Of a stretch of 64,000 bases of DNA, positions 27,612 to 32,080 are shown in pieces. This DNA comes from Desulfosediminicola ganghwensis (GTDB lineage Bacteria > Desulfobacterota > Desulfobulbia > Desulfobulbales > Desulfocapsaceae). The notes under the pieces are model-generated. The model was not told where the DNA came from and made no database searches. It was given only the letters and a program-made list of their open reading frames with translations. Where the stretch lies: positions 2,999,001 to 3,063,000 of the forward strand of contig NZ_CP050699.1 of the NCBI RefSeq assembly GCF_005116675.2, given 5' to 3'. The translations under genes and the position numbers were made by a program. The stretch's first letter is position 1. Each line of letters starts with the position of its first letter.

Positions 27612-28877
27612 TTAACCAAAGATACCTTTCAGGGTGAAGAATATCAGCATGGCCATAACAGCGCCTGCCGGCAAGGTGACCACCCAGGAAATAATAATGT
27701 TTCCGACGACTCGGAGATCAAGCGCGCCGATTCCTCTGGCTAAACCTACACCCAGTACGGAACCTACCAGGATGTGTGTGGTGGAAACCGGCAGCCCTGT
27801 CCTGGAGGCGAGGACTACTGTGGTTGCCGCTGCAAGTTCAGCACAGAAGCCGCGGGATGGTGTGAGTTCTGTGATCTTTTTACCGACAGTAAGCATAACC
27901 CTGTAGCCGAGGGTGATAAGACCGAGCACGATACCACCGCCACCCAGCAGCAGAATCCAGACAGGCAGATCGGATTCCTGCATAACTTCACCACCGGAAC
28001 CGACAATACTTACTACAGCAGCGAGCGGTCCGATTCCGTTTGCCACATCGTTTGAGCCGTGGGCAAAGGCCATGGCGCAGGCCGTAAAGAGCATCATCGG
28101 GCTGAAAACTTTCTCCACACTGGCGAAGTGGGTTTCCCGGTTGGTGCCGATATCTTCTTTAATATTTCTGATGAAGTACCAGCCCAGCGCAGCTGCCATT
28201 GCGCCAATAATGCTCGCGACGGCAAAACTCTGGAGGACGGTGAGATCAACGTTCAGATGTTTGAGTCCCTTGAAGAGGGTGACAAGGGAGATCATGAAGC
28301 CCACCATGAAAATGTAAGCCGGCGCGTACTTCTTGGCGTTCCTTAGTGGCTGATCCGTGTCGAAAATAAGCTTTCTGGTGCTCATCACCAATAAAAAGGC
28401 AATCGTGCCACCAATAGCAGGGGATATTACCCAGCTGGCAACAACGCTGCCCACTTTGCTCCATTTAACGGCTTCGGGTCCGATTCCAACGAGAGCAAAT
28501 CCGATAAGCGCGCCGATAATGGAGTGTGTGGTTGACACAGGCCAACCTCTGGTAGAGGCAATCATCAGCCATAGTGCAGCAGCCAGAAGCGATGCCAGCA
28601 TACCATAAACAAGGATTTCGGGATTGGCAGCGATACCGGAGGGATCGATGATGCCTTTACGAATTGTTGAGGTAACATGGCCTCCAGCCAGTACAGCCCC
28701 CATAAATTCAAAGATAATGGCGATGCATATAGCCTGTTTTACGGTGATGGCACCTGCACCAACAGAGGTTCCCATGGCATTGGCAAGGTCATTGGCGCCA
28801 ATACCCCAGGTCATGTAGAGTCCGAAGATAACCGCCAGGATGACCATGGCGGTTCCATAAGTAGCAATAATTTCCAT
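27612..28877 (-). CDS. pit: Inorganic phosphate transporter, PiT family
   Basis: The 421-residue membrane protein has about ten transmembrane segments and the duplicated PiT signatures GANDLANAMGTSVGAG near the N-terminus and HGSNDVANGIGPLAAV in the second half. Each half also carries a VSTTHSIIGA/VSTTHILVGS motif. PiT proteins take up metal-phosphate by proton or sodium symport with low affinity. The upstream DUF47 gene ends only 9 bp before this start, so they form an operon. A GAGGGG ribosome-binding site precedes the ATG at 28877. Confidence 0.93.
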   Translation of the reverse strand: MEIIATYGTAMVILAVIFGLYMTWGIGANDLANAMGTSVGAGAITVKQAICIAIIFEFMGAVLAGGHVTSTIRKGIIDPSGIAANPEILVYGMLASLLAAALWLMIASTRGWPVSTTHSIIGALIGFALVGIGPEAVKWSKVGSVVASWVISPAIGGTIAFLLVMSTRKLIFDTDQPLRNAKKYAPAYIFMVGFMISLVTLFKGLKHLNVDLTVLQSFAVASIIGAMAAALGWYFIRNIKEDIGTNRETHFASVEKVFSPMMLFTACAMAFAHGSNDVANGIGPLAAVVSIVGSGGEVMQESDLPVWILLLGGGGIVLGLITLGYRVMLTVGKKITELTPSRGFCAELAAATTVVLASRTGLPVSTTHILVGSVLGVGLARGIGALDLRVVGNIIISWVVTLPAGAVMAMLIFFTLKGIFG

Positions 28878-28886
28878 TTTCCCCTC

Positions 28887-29567
28887 TTATTTGGACAGGA
28901 ACAAAAGTACGCGGTCAGCCATATTCTCAGACTGGTCTGAAATGTTGCCAAGAAGTTCGAGTATCTTGTACCAATACATCACAGAAACTGGATCTAATTC
29001 AGCCTCAATTTCAAAAAGCGCCCTGCGTGCGCGATGGAGGATGGCGTCGATATTGTGTTCGCTGCGGCGAACACCGGCAATCATTTCGGTGACTCGTGCC
29101 ATTTCACGTCCTCCAAAGCCAACTTCCAGCAACTCGTCGAGTTGTTCAATCATTTCCTTGGCTTCGGAAGTTACCTCCATGGTTCCCTCAAGCAGCTCGT
29201 CAAGATGGGATTTGAGTTTGTCGGGGACAATCATATCCCTGAAGGTGACTATCTGACTGATAGCTTCTGCCGTGTCGGCAATGGAGTCCTGATCGCTGAT
29301 AAGACCGAGTAAATCTTTTCTGTCTACCGGCATCAATAACGAGGTAGGCATGTTAAGTCTGAAGGTGGATTTGATTTTATCCGCTTCAGTTTCCAGTTCA
29401 CTGATTTGTCGGGATAAATTTCTGGTCTGTCCTTTATCCTTGGCATAGATTGCGTCGAATAGGGGTGGTACCAGACAGATACAGGAGAACACTGCACGCA
29501 TGTGTTCCTGAATCGGCTTAAACGGTGAACGTCGGAACAGGCCCGACAGGGGCGTAGTTGATCGCAT
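28887..29567 (-). CDS. DUF47/PhoU-like phosphate transport regulator (TIGR00153 family)
   Basis: The all-helical, PhoU-like protein begins MRSTTPLSGLFRRSPFKPIQEHM, the standard opening of TIGR00153/DUF47 proteins. These sit next to pit genes and are thought to modulate the transporter. The start at 29567 (nine bases after AGAGG) is preferred; ATG 29573 and an upstream ATG 29609 are alternatives, the last without a ribosome-binding site. It is the first gene of the pit operon. Confidence 0.88.
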   Translation of the reverse strand: MRSTTPLSGLFRRSPFKPIQEHMRAVFSCICLVPPLFDAIYAKDKGQTRNLSRQISELETEADKIKSTFRLNMPTSLLMPVDRKDLLGLISDQDSIADTAEAISQIVTFRDMIVPDKLKSHLDELLEGTMEVTSEAKEMIEQLDELLEVGFGGREMARVTEMIAGVRRSEHNIDAILHRARRALFEIEAELDPVSVMYWYKILELLGNISDQSENMADRVLLFLSK

Positions 29568-29998
29568 GATCATTGACCTCTTCACTTTTGTTTTTTTGCC
29601 ATCAGGCATTTTGGTTCAATTCAAGCTAGAATTGTCTCTCTCCTAACACTAATATTAGGCGAATATTAAAAACAGGTTAAACTAAACCGAACTATCAAGA
29701 ATTGCCAATCAAATATTGGGCTGCAATTAAGGGTAGATAAATTGAATAAGTACGTTGGACCAGTTAGTTATGGAATCTTTGAAAAAATACTGAATATTAA
29801 GATTGTGTTAAGAAAACTATATTACACAAAGAAATTGGCAGGAATTGATCAGGAGGTAATGTGCGGGATCCGGCAGACGAACAACCGGGATTGACGGCGG
29901 AACAACCGCCGGGTGTGACCAGGGGCAGGTGGCGATGATTCCAGTTGGAGTCCAATATGACAACCATTGTGCGGCCTGTATGAACATGGCAATGAAAG
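29568..29998. other. Region upstream of the pit operon
   Basis: This AT-rich stretch should contain the pit promoter on the minus strand; I cannot point to a certain Pho box. Near its right end, AGGAGG at 29851 precedes a GTG (29861) opening a 25-codon frame, whose stop overlaps the ATG (29935) of a 39-codon frame running into the convergent gene. A hairpin CGGCGG/CCGCCG lies at 29895-29911. Confidence 0.4.
29861..29938 (+). CDS. Candidate 25-residue peptide, unsupported by homology
   Basis: A GTG start follows a perfect AGGAGG by four bases. The frame encodes RDPADEQPGLTAEQPPG and ends RGRWR. Its TGA at 29936 overlaps the ATG of a second small frame (29935-30054, with an HCAAC motif) in an ATGA arrangement that would permit translational coupling. 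The second frame runs into the 3' end of the phosphatase fusion gene on the opposite strand, which weakens the case. Confidence 0.2.
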   Translation: MRDPADEQPGLTAEQPPGVTRGRWR

Positions 29999-32080
29999 TC
30001 AGATATTATTTATCAGTTTGGTCAGAGGCTCTGCAGGGTAGGTCAGAGGGATAAGGCCACCTTTCAGCTGTTGTAAAATGGCGGGACCCTCTTGATGGGC
30101 GCTGTAGATAATATGGTGGTTCTTGATTGAGCCAACGTTTTTCCAGATTGAGCCGAATGGGTCAAGTGGTGTATGACCGACTATGAAAGGTGTTCCTTTT
30201 TTAACCTTCAATGCCTTCCTGAATTTTTTAACATCGCTTTTGGTGTATCCTGCCAGATAATGAGGCCGCTGGAGCCTGTTTTTGGTCACTTCTCTGATGA
30301 GTACGGGATTGTCGGCGATATGTACTATGTCATCGTACGTGACCTGAGTACGTGGTGGGGCCGCGTGGCAACCATAAAAGTGTTTGGATTTGACGACATA
30401 GGCGAGTTTGTCATACAACTTTTCCATCTCCTGCGCATATTCTTCGCCACGGAGTTCAACCAGGCGGTTACGCATCAGCACTCCCTGAAGAATACCGTTT
30501 TTACTGATATTCGTGGCAAAAGTGTCGTGGTTTCCGCGTATGTAGAAGAAGTTTTCAGGAAAGCGAAGTTTGAGTGTTATGATCAGATCCATCAACAGGA
30601 TTGAGCTATCCATTGACTCCATCTCGTCGAGGAGTTCTGAATGAACTGCATCGCCAAGAATTATGATTGTCGTTGATTTAGATTGCAGGCAATTGAGCAG
30701 GCAGTTCTCGGCGATAATTTTTAGCAGGTTATCAACCATTCCATGCAGATCACCGATAATCAGGGGCAACGCGCGCTGATCGAGTTCAATGATTCCTCCT
30801 GGCATGCCGTCTCGCCTGGGTGGACGCATTGGTTCATTATCCATCAGGGTGTTGAGTTCCTGAATCCGTTTTAGCGCCACATCAGGCTCAAGCAAAGCGA
30901 TCGGGCCTCCATAAAGATGCCGTATGGTGATAAAGGCTTTCTGTCGATTTGCCTCGACCTGCTCCCGGTAGTCCAGATCATCAAAACGAACAAGTTTGAC
31001 ACCGTATTTCTCGTCAAGCGGGGTTATGGTCAGATCTCCCCTGTTATTTGTGATAGTGGCGTGGCGATTTGCTACTTGTTCCGAGAACTGAAGAATAGTG
31101 TCGTATTCGCTGTTGGCTTTACCGAGGATCACCGTTTCACCAGGAGCGATGCGGACAAAACCGGTGGGGTCTGTGCTTGAGCATGCCTGGGGGGTGTTGA
31201 TGATCCAGCTCTTTCGTATATCTTTGCGTTTGACTCCCAGTGGAATTTCAGGGTGGAAGCAGAGGCGCTGGTCACCAAGAAGCATTTCGAATGTTCGGCC
31301 ATCATGGGCGATTCTATTGATCCCCCTGATACGACGTATGTCATTGGTGATGGTAAACCAATTGCCTTGTTTCATACCAATGACCTGCTTCCAGCCTGCC
31401 CAGGTCTTAAGGCTCGGGCGTGGTGGGCTATAACTGATCGCCCATTTAGGTATGGTGGCAACGCCCTTTTCGGCTATACGCATCGGCTTGCCCTCAAGCC
31501 CTATGCGAATATAAACATTTAAACCAGCCCGATGCAGATAGAGGGCAATTTCCTGGTATGCCTGGATCTGTTTCTGAACAATTTCCTCGGTTAATTCTGT
31601 ATCAACTGGAAAATAACCGCGGCTCTGACGTTCTTTCCGGCGTCTGTAAATTGTCTCATAGTCGGGAAGAAGGAATTCGAAAATATACCGTTGCCGCCAG
31701 TTGGTCTGGAAAAAATATTGCTTTTTAGGCGGAATCTTGAGGCGTTCAAATTCGATTGGTGGCGGAGGATCCTGCTCCAGCCATTCCTTTTCAAAGACAG
31801 TAAGAGCTTCTTTGTGCCCGGCAAAAGGCATGCCGAGGTGGACCTCCCGCGGCCTGTAGATCAGCGTCTGGTCTTTCCACCACCCTTTTCGGGTAAGGTC
31901 GATATACCCTTCGTTAGGCCACCCTTTGATCTGGTTGATATAATACGATTTTCCAGCTCCCGGTGGCCCGGTTACCACCAGTTGCAGGTATTCCAGACCA
32001 ATGGGCATCGCCACGCCGCGAATATTCTGGATATCCTTGATCGGTACCAGTATTTTATGTAGAGGGTCTTGCATTTTCAC
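29999..32080 (-). CDS. P-loop NTPase/FHA-like/PPP-family phosphatase fusion
   Basis: The 693-residue soluble protein has an N-terminal kinase-like P-loop domain with Walker A GPPGAGKS (38-45) and a following DLTRKGWW segment. A middle region (about 310-370) resembles an FHA fold (VILGKANSEYD, ANRHATITN, then LDEKYGVKLV). The C-terminal metallophosphoesterase has GDLHG (443-447), GDAVHSE (476-482), GNHD (516-519), a GCHAAP His at 572 and VGHTP His at 636, which is the full PPP metal-binding set. Separate kinase and phosphatase modules on one chain recall bacterial Pnkp, and an FHA module recalls mammalian PNKP, so nucleic-acid end repair is possible. Regulated phosphorylation of protein or nucleotide is an alternative. 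The gene stands alone, divergent from ogt across 352 bp. Confidence 0.72.
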   Translation of the reverse strand: MKMQDPLHKILVPIKDIQNIRGVAMPIGLEYLQLVVTGPPGAGKSYYINQIKGWPNEGYIDLTRKGWWKDQTLIYRPREVHLGMPFAGHKEALTVFEKEWLEQDPPPPIEFERLKIPPKKQYFFQTNWRQRYIFEFLLPDYETIYRRRKERQSRGYFPVDTELTEEIVQKQIQAYQEIALYLHRAGLNVYIRIGLEGKPMRIAEKGVATIPKWAISYSPPRPSLKTWAGWKQVIGMKQGNWFTITNDIRRIRGINRIAHDGRTFEMLLGDQRLCFHPEIPLGVKRKDIRKSWIINTPQACSSTDPTGFVRIAPGETVILGKANSEYDTILQFSEQVANRHATITNNRGDLTITPLDEKYGVKLVRFDDLDYREQVEANRQKAFITIRHLYGGPIALLEPDVALKRIQELNTLMDNEPMRPPRRDGMPGGIIELDQRALPLIIGDLHGMVDNLLKIIAENCLLNCLQSKSTTIIILGDAVHSELLDEMESMDSSILLMDLIITLKLRFPENFFYIRGNHDTFATNISKNGILQGVLMRNRLVELRGEEYAQEMEKLYDKLAYVVKSKHFYGCHAAPPRTQVTYDDIVHIADNPVLIREVTKNRLQRPHYLAGYTKSDVKKFRKALKVKKGTPFIVGHTPLDPFGSIWKNVGSIKNHHIIYSAHQEGPAILQQLKGGLIPLTYPAEPLTKLINNI

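Follow-up and report, generated by a model that had tools for sequence, protein, structure and literature searches.

A P-loop kinase-like, FHA-like and PPP phosphatase protein encoded beside a DUF47-Pit phosphate-uptake pair in Desulfosediminicola ganghwensis and its relatives

Bacterial Pnkp is built from a kinase, a PPP phosphatase and a ligase, in that order, while mammalian PNKP carries an N-terminal FHA domain followed by a HAD-type phosphatase and a C-terminal kinase. PPP phosphatases are recognized by their GDxH and GNH(E/D) motifs together with two metal-binding histidines, and their second motif is canonically GDxxDRG, with an arginine that binds phosphate. FHA domains bind phosphothreonine through an Arg/Ser/His triad, and arginines in the lid are a feature of P-loop kinases. 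As regards phosphate import, the control of Pit-type transporters through DUF47/PhoU-like proteins is, to our knowledge, poorly understood. Bacterial Pnkp is reported to share its operon with Hen1 (PMC4411300), and DUF47 (phoU2/pitR) and pitA are described as an operon in S. aureus (PMC7326077).

The window analyzed here, a stretch of 64 kb from D. ganghwensis, contains a gene whose product combines a probable P-loop kinase-like domain, an FHA-like middle and a PPP phosphatase on one chain, and which is followed by genes for a DUF47 protein and a Pit-type transporter (Table 1). An earlier note on this DNA had claimed a single chain of 693 residues, which the 693-codon open reading frame on the minus strand confirms, and had listed the motifs GPPGAGKS, GDLHG, GDAVHS and GNHD and two histidines, all of which are present. 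Conservation was counted in an alignment of 45 non-redundant relatives with identities to the window protein down to 52%. Residues G38, P39, P40, G41, G43, K44, D444, H446, D477, H480, N517, H518, D519, H572 and H636 are invariant in it, and the motifs are therefore not a product of chance. The three-domain outline drawn in the same note also holds, with the qualification that the middle is FHA-like only and that the kinase fold match is non-significant.

Table 1. Features of the three-domain protein gene and its downstream partners, in window positions.
Feature	Residues	Position	Strand	Basis
Three-domain protein gene	693 codons (691 aa from ATG 32074)	29999..32080	minus	ORF calling
P-loop kinase-like domain (probable)	1-232	31385..32080	minus	nearest folds P-loop kinases, Z <= 7.4; invariant residues
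Walker A GPPGAGKS	38-45	31946..31969	minus	alignment
Lid-like segment R148..R151..G155..P158.D160	148-160	31601..31639	minus	alignment
Beta-rich FHA-like middle	core 303-372	30881..31384 (core 30965-31174)	minus	Pfam, model, profile comparison, alignment
PPP-type phosphatase	395-693	30002..30898	minus	Pfam Metallophos E 1.1e-7; PHROG NinI-like E 1.2e-10; Z about 27 to PP5
PPP motif 1 GDLHG	443-447	30740..30754	minus	alignment
PPP motif 2 variant GDAVHS	476-481	30638..30655	minus	DRG replaced, H480 invariant
PPP motif 3 GNHD	516-519	30524..30535	minus	alignment
DUF47 / PhoU_div protein, downstream partner		28887..29609	minus	Pfam PhoU_div E 1.2e-50; linkage
Pit-type phosphate transporter (PHO4), downstream partner		27612..28877	minus	Pfam PHO4 E 3.5e-121; linkage

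The open reading frame was found in one copy when its own 5.65 Mb genome was searched. Its start codon is probably the ATG located two codons into the frame, because the methionine encoded there is present in 42 of the 45 aligned relatives. In two genomes the coding sequence is broken into two overlapping frames, near residue 200 in G081 (L055/L230) and near residue 420 in G125 (L238), which may be due to assembly error or to a real frameshift. The AlphaFold model of the entire protein has a mean pLDDT of 84.2 and a pTM of 0.76. Pfam recognizes a calcineurin-like phosphoesterase over residues 440-640, in addition to weak AAA matches. The single NCBIfam match is to PdeM, a ligase-associated DNA-damage-response phosphoesterase family (residues 466-524, E 0.011, 15.2 bits against a cut-off of 150). 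A PADLOC scan gave no match, and neither Rfam families nor tRNAs were found across the window. Searches of PMC papers, which leave out most of the subscription literature, returned no description of the three-domain protein.

In the AlphaFold model, the C-terminal part adopts the fold of a PPP phosphatase, superposing on PP5 (3h64) with a Z of 27.4 and an rmsd of 2.9 over 267 residues, and on PP1 and PP2A with a Z of about 26. Residues D444, H446, D477, H480, N517, H518, D519, H572, R602 and H636 are unchanged in all 45 rows of the alignment. The claim of a complete PPP metal set was borne out with respect to the metal motifs, but the arginine of GDxxDRG is missing, motif 2 reading GDAxH in 45/45 rows. 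In five spirochaete relatives the same motif reads GDxxHDDR, its histidine being invariant in both groups. The domain shares with PP5, PP1, PP2A and the phage NinI type the fold, metal motifs 1 and 3 and the GHTP motif, and differs from them in the lost arginine and in the two further domains fused to it.

The N-terminal domain is probably P-loop kinase-like, judging from its model and its invariant residues. D61, W67, W68, R78, E79, E135, R148, R151, P158 and D160 are unchanged in 45/45 rows. A separate model of residues 1-400 (pLDDT 77.1, pTM 0.56) gave as best Foldseek matches a deoxyribonucleoside kinase, the C. thermocellum polynucleotide kinase and an adenylate kinase, with E values of 0.019-0.051, none significant, and residues 32-200 reached a VIA Z of up to 7.4 against P-loop kinases, below significance. 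The C. thermocellum polynucleotide kinase (Z 7.3, rmsd 4.2, 127 aligned residues, Foldseek E 0.027) is tied at a Z of about 7 with adenylate and deoxynucleoside kinases. Because a common arrangement can be enough to yield matches of this strength, the designation P-loop kinase-like stays only probable. Two of the checks proposed in the earlier note gave a divided answer for this part of the protein. Structure prediction placed kinases as the nearest folds, but at non-significant scores, and profile-profile comparison with 17 AAA_33 proteins scored 38, against at most 17 in eight shuffles, but over a 35-column P-loop stretch only. Outside the P-loop, the profile of the domain matched neither AAA_33 nor PPK2. 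Among PDB chains, nothing scored below E 0.49 with the sequence profile of residues 1-232 or with that of residues 233-400, and Foldseek returned no significant match among viral structure models.

The fold list also bears on a metabolic explanation, namely a polyphosphate or inositol-type enzyme in which a PPK2-like kinase and a polyphosphatase would be joined in one chain and encoded next to a phosphate importer. PPK2 structures appear among the listed folds and span a larger portion of the domain than the others (roughly residues 1-237 of the model, with 164-178 aligned residues and a Z of about 6), PPP-type endopolyphosphatases do exist and could serve as precedent, and the phosphate-uptake context would be appropriate. 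However, the comparison with the profile of 16 PPK2 proteins of relatives scored 16.7, no better than five shuffles (up to 16.3), which makes membership of the N-terminal domain in PPK2 doubtful, and genuine PPK2 genes are found elsewhere in the same genome. We regard this explanation as very improbable.

The middle of the protein is likely related to genuine FHA domains, as suggested by profile comparison. Pfam FHA matches residues 318-362 with E 0.007 and 17.2 bits, under the curated cut-off of 20.7; 6/45 members reach E 0.1, and no PF00498 match at E 0.01 was found in the organism's own genome. An hhalign comparison of the region with 24 FHA domains from related genomes gave a score of 29.6 (E 2e-4, probability 46%, 53 columns), while eight shuffles gave at most 15.6, the reversed profile 11.8 and mismatched domain pairs at most 16.6. 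The list of fold matches of the residues 1-400 model, 50 entries filled by kinases, contains no FHA structure. The Arg/Ser/His triad is complete in just 7/45 rows and reads K/A/H in the window protein, so a phosphothreonine pocket of the classical kind is not to be expected. The proposed FHA-like middle can be retained in so far as the profile relation is concerned, but the Pfam match lies below its cut-off and the triad is degenerate. Ahead of the FHA-like core lies an additional beta-rich stretch with an invariant H259-D260-G261 (residues 233-287; 31220-31384, minus strand). Circular permutation of an FHA domain could conceivably explain it; the respective comparison of residues 233-298 with the last FHA strands (15.7 against at most 12.4 in five shuffles, 14 columns) was too weak to be accepted.

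Like mammalian PNKP, the protein unites kinase-like, phosphatase and FHA(-like) domains in a single chain, but they are arranged as kinase-like, FHA-like and PPP, with a phosphatase that is PPP- and not HAD-type. Given this difference and the unconserved FHA pocket, the suggested parallel to the mammalian enzyme is not upheld. The similarity to bacterial Pnkp lies in a P-loop kinase-like domain placed N-terminal to a PPP-type phosphatase. The differences comprise the FHA-like insert, the GDAxH form of motif 2, DUF47 and Pit as partners where Pnkp has Hen1, and the ligase, which is lacking as previously claimed: no Pfam ligase match appears even at E 5, and the PPP domain ends the chain.

Concerning distribution, a scan of genome contigs retrieved 39 loci, most of them full-length and 48-72% identical to the window protein. 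The full-length ones come from Desulfopila, Desulforhopalus, Desulfocapsa, Desulfobulbus and uncultured kin, two are short fragments (L065, L066), and six spirochaete loci (L058-L062, L064) correspond to the C-terminal part only. The gene was detected in 26/58 related genomes by single-sequence search and in 84/257 genomes of the class by profile search, all 84 carriers belonging to two families of the same order, f1 (63) and f12 (21). Across the phylum, the kinase profile matched 3/395 genomes. Two are f1 and the third, G423 (L099), was discarded, its match being an ABC-transporter ATPase by its sequence; none of the f12 carriers of the class search is among these three. The phosphatase profile at E 1e-6 matched 5/390 phylum genomes, two from f1 and three more distant (G286, G471, G380). 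The three-part chain is limited to two families of one order among the genomes searched. Plasmid and phage collections contained no match to the whole protein, and viral contigs none to the phosphatase part; the kinase part had two P-loop-only matches among the latter. These are small AAA_33 proteins (L218, L219), 54% and 49% identical to the protein over its residues 28-62 and 24-62, respectively.

The spirochaete loci are relevant to a further explanation, in which the P-loop domain is a switch sensing ATP/ADP or GTP that gates the PPP domain, and the latter alone acts on a phosphoprotein of phosphate uptake. It would agree with the secure fold, which is available for the PPP domain only, and with an N-terminal part lacking significant matches beyond the P-loop. 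It would also agree with six spirochaete loci having the phosphatase without the kinase part; residues 1-400 found nothing better than E 0.04 in six spirochaete genomes. Five of these loci lie near a Pfam protein kinase gene (L058-L062), an arrangement equally compatible with an ordinary protein phosphatase. On the other hand, the lid-like pattern, in which R148, R151, P158 and D160 are invariant, and the acidic residues D61 and E135 are features required of a kinase. We consider this explanation unlikely. In five of the six spirochaete loci (L059-L062, L064) the next gene codes for a conserved protein, about 306 aa long and incomplete in L064; that of L059 has no Pfam match and, by eye, looks HipA-like.

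The main result concerns the gene neighbourhood. Among 30 loci, DUF47 is found downstream on the same strand in 27 and Pit in 28; neither partner is present at L057, or at L039 in the 2.1 kb that follow the gene there, and DUF47 is missing from L045. DUF47 lies beside the gene on the same strand in 22 of the 23 testable f1 genomes, three of the 26 carriers having been set aside as cut by contig ends or fragmentary. In the exception, G016 (L234), the f1-type flanking genes are kept and DUF47 and Pit are absent beside the gene; two lower-scoring DUF47 genes are located elsewhere in that genome. The wider f1 neighbourhood (glutamate-synthase-type genes, MutL, PBP and GIDA, which we take to be TrmFO) is common but rearranged. 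Since this neighbourhood, too, is common to the genomes, f1 linkage alone is weak evidence. For f12, stretches of up to 5 kb on each side were fetched for 18 of the 21 carriers. DUF47 is present in 18/18 and Pit in 17/18, in the same order and strand, the remaining contig ending before Pit, and none of seven f1 flanking genes queried was detected in these 18 stretches. The 30-locus, f1 and f12 sets partly overlap and their counts are not additive. DUF47 also occurs without the three-domain gene, in 17/32 non-carrier genomes. In the window, the same-strand downstream genes are DUF47 and Pit, and the next gene upstream is on the opposite strand; across the gap of 389 nt between the gene and DUF47, co-transcription is only a possibility.

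The same neighbourhood has to be considered for the possibility of Pnkp-like healing of nucleic-acid ends, the kinase acting on 5'-OH ends and the PPP domain removing 3' or 2',3'-cyclic phosphates. In the window, a gene with an O6-methylguanine methyltransferase domain adjoins and MutL lies four genes downstream, the kinase-then-PPP order is that of bacterial Pnkp, one of the equally ranked nearest folds is that of a polynucleotide kinase and the sole NCBIfam match, far under its cut-off, is to PdeM. However, adenylate and deoxynucleoside kinases fit equally well, there is no ligase domain, the FHA-like insert is foreign to bacterial Pnkp, and the conserved gene context gives no hint of nucleic-acid repair. 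Ten scanned neighbour genes included neither Hen1 nor a ligase. The proposal of an end-processing enzyme consequently retains little beyond the domain pairing, the partners being a phosphate transporter and a PhoU-like protein, and we find it rather improbable. The usual position beside a phosphate importer and its partner therefore makes a phosphate-uptake switch or enzyme likelier than an RNA/DNA repair enzyme. Of the two readings offered by the earlier note, phospho-signalling remains the better one given these partners, and the gene is very probably linked to phosphate uptake.

Phylogenetic trees were also examined. A DUF47 tree was built from 67 proteins, 49 of the 52 DUF47 matches in related genomes and 18 from f12 modules. 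All 39 module copies, plus one extra, are set apart in it with a bootstrap of 90 and a branch of 0.88. The extra copy, L239, is the second DUF47 of G028 and is found on another contig, on which no copy of the three-domain gene was detected. In the trees of 37 loci, the f12 loci L030, L220 and L221 group with the window and with L028 and L029 (Desulfopila), with a support of 1.0 for the three-domain gene and 0.98 for DUF47, and of 100 in the 67-protein tree. The Pit tree agrees with the other two more coarsely, assigning the same three loci, together with f1 loci, to a group of 15 members (1.0), apart from the other f12 loci. Correlation of tree distances gave r 0.88 between the three-domain gene and DUF47 and 0.87 between that gene and Pit, values also expected from vertical descent alone. 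Taken with the family labels, the trees suggest that the three genes may have been transferred between families as one unit, because the misplaced f12 trio fits such a transfer.

Compared with the S. aureus pitR/phoU2-pitA operon (PMC7326077), the two downstream genes form the same kind of DUF47-Pit pair; the differences are that this pair usually comes with a third, bifunctional-looking enzyme and that its DUF47 proteins fall in a separate clade. We propose that the protein would be the third member of a three-gene module, together with a distinct DUF47/PhoU-like protein and Pit, and that this module may have moved between families. The N-terminal P-loop domain would phosphorylate a substrate at the expense of ATP, and the C-terminal PPP domain would dephosphorylate that substrate or one linked to it. 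The degenerate FHA-like domain might serve as a scaffold or an intramolecular sensor, unlike a classical phosphothreonine reader. The outcome would tune phosphate import, in one direction or the other, via DUF47 and Pit, either of which the protein may contact physically. Against this proposal stand the loci that lack one or both partners, the 389-nt gap, the module-type DUF47 of G028 away from the gene, the DUF47 genes of non-carrier genomes and the spirochaete loci with a phosphatase part only. Adjacency and common history are no proof of a common mechanism, and we consider the chances evenly balanced that the protein is a bifunctional kinase/phosphatase serving the Pit-DUF47 module, its kinase activity being inferred.

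A more specific possibility is that the bifunctional protein makes, through its kinase, and destroys, through its PPP domain, a dedicated phosphorylated signal that is read by its own DUF47 and gates Pit. The signal may be a small molecule or a modified protein. In eukaryotes, phosphate transporters are controlled by inositol pyrophosphates and SPX domains, and a make/destroy system of this kind would, if true, be a functional analogue. We deem this version quite doubtful.

A third regular partner of DUF47-Pit that carries two invariant motif sets, and that apparently travels between families together with the pair, is a concrete, testable candidate for the control of Pit-type phosphate import. 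It also represents a further way of joining kinase-like and phosphatase domains, apart from the RNA-repair Pnkp and the DNA-repair PNKP.
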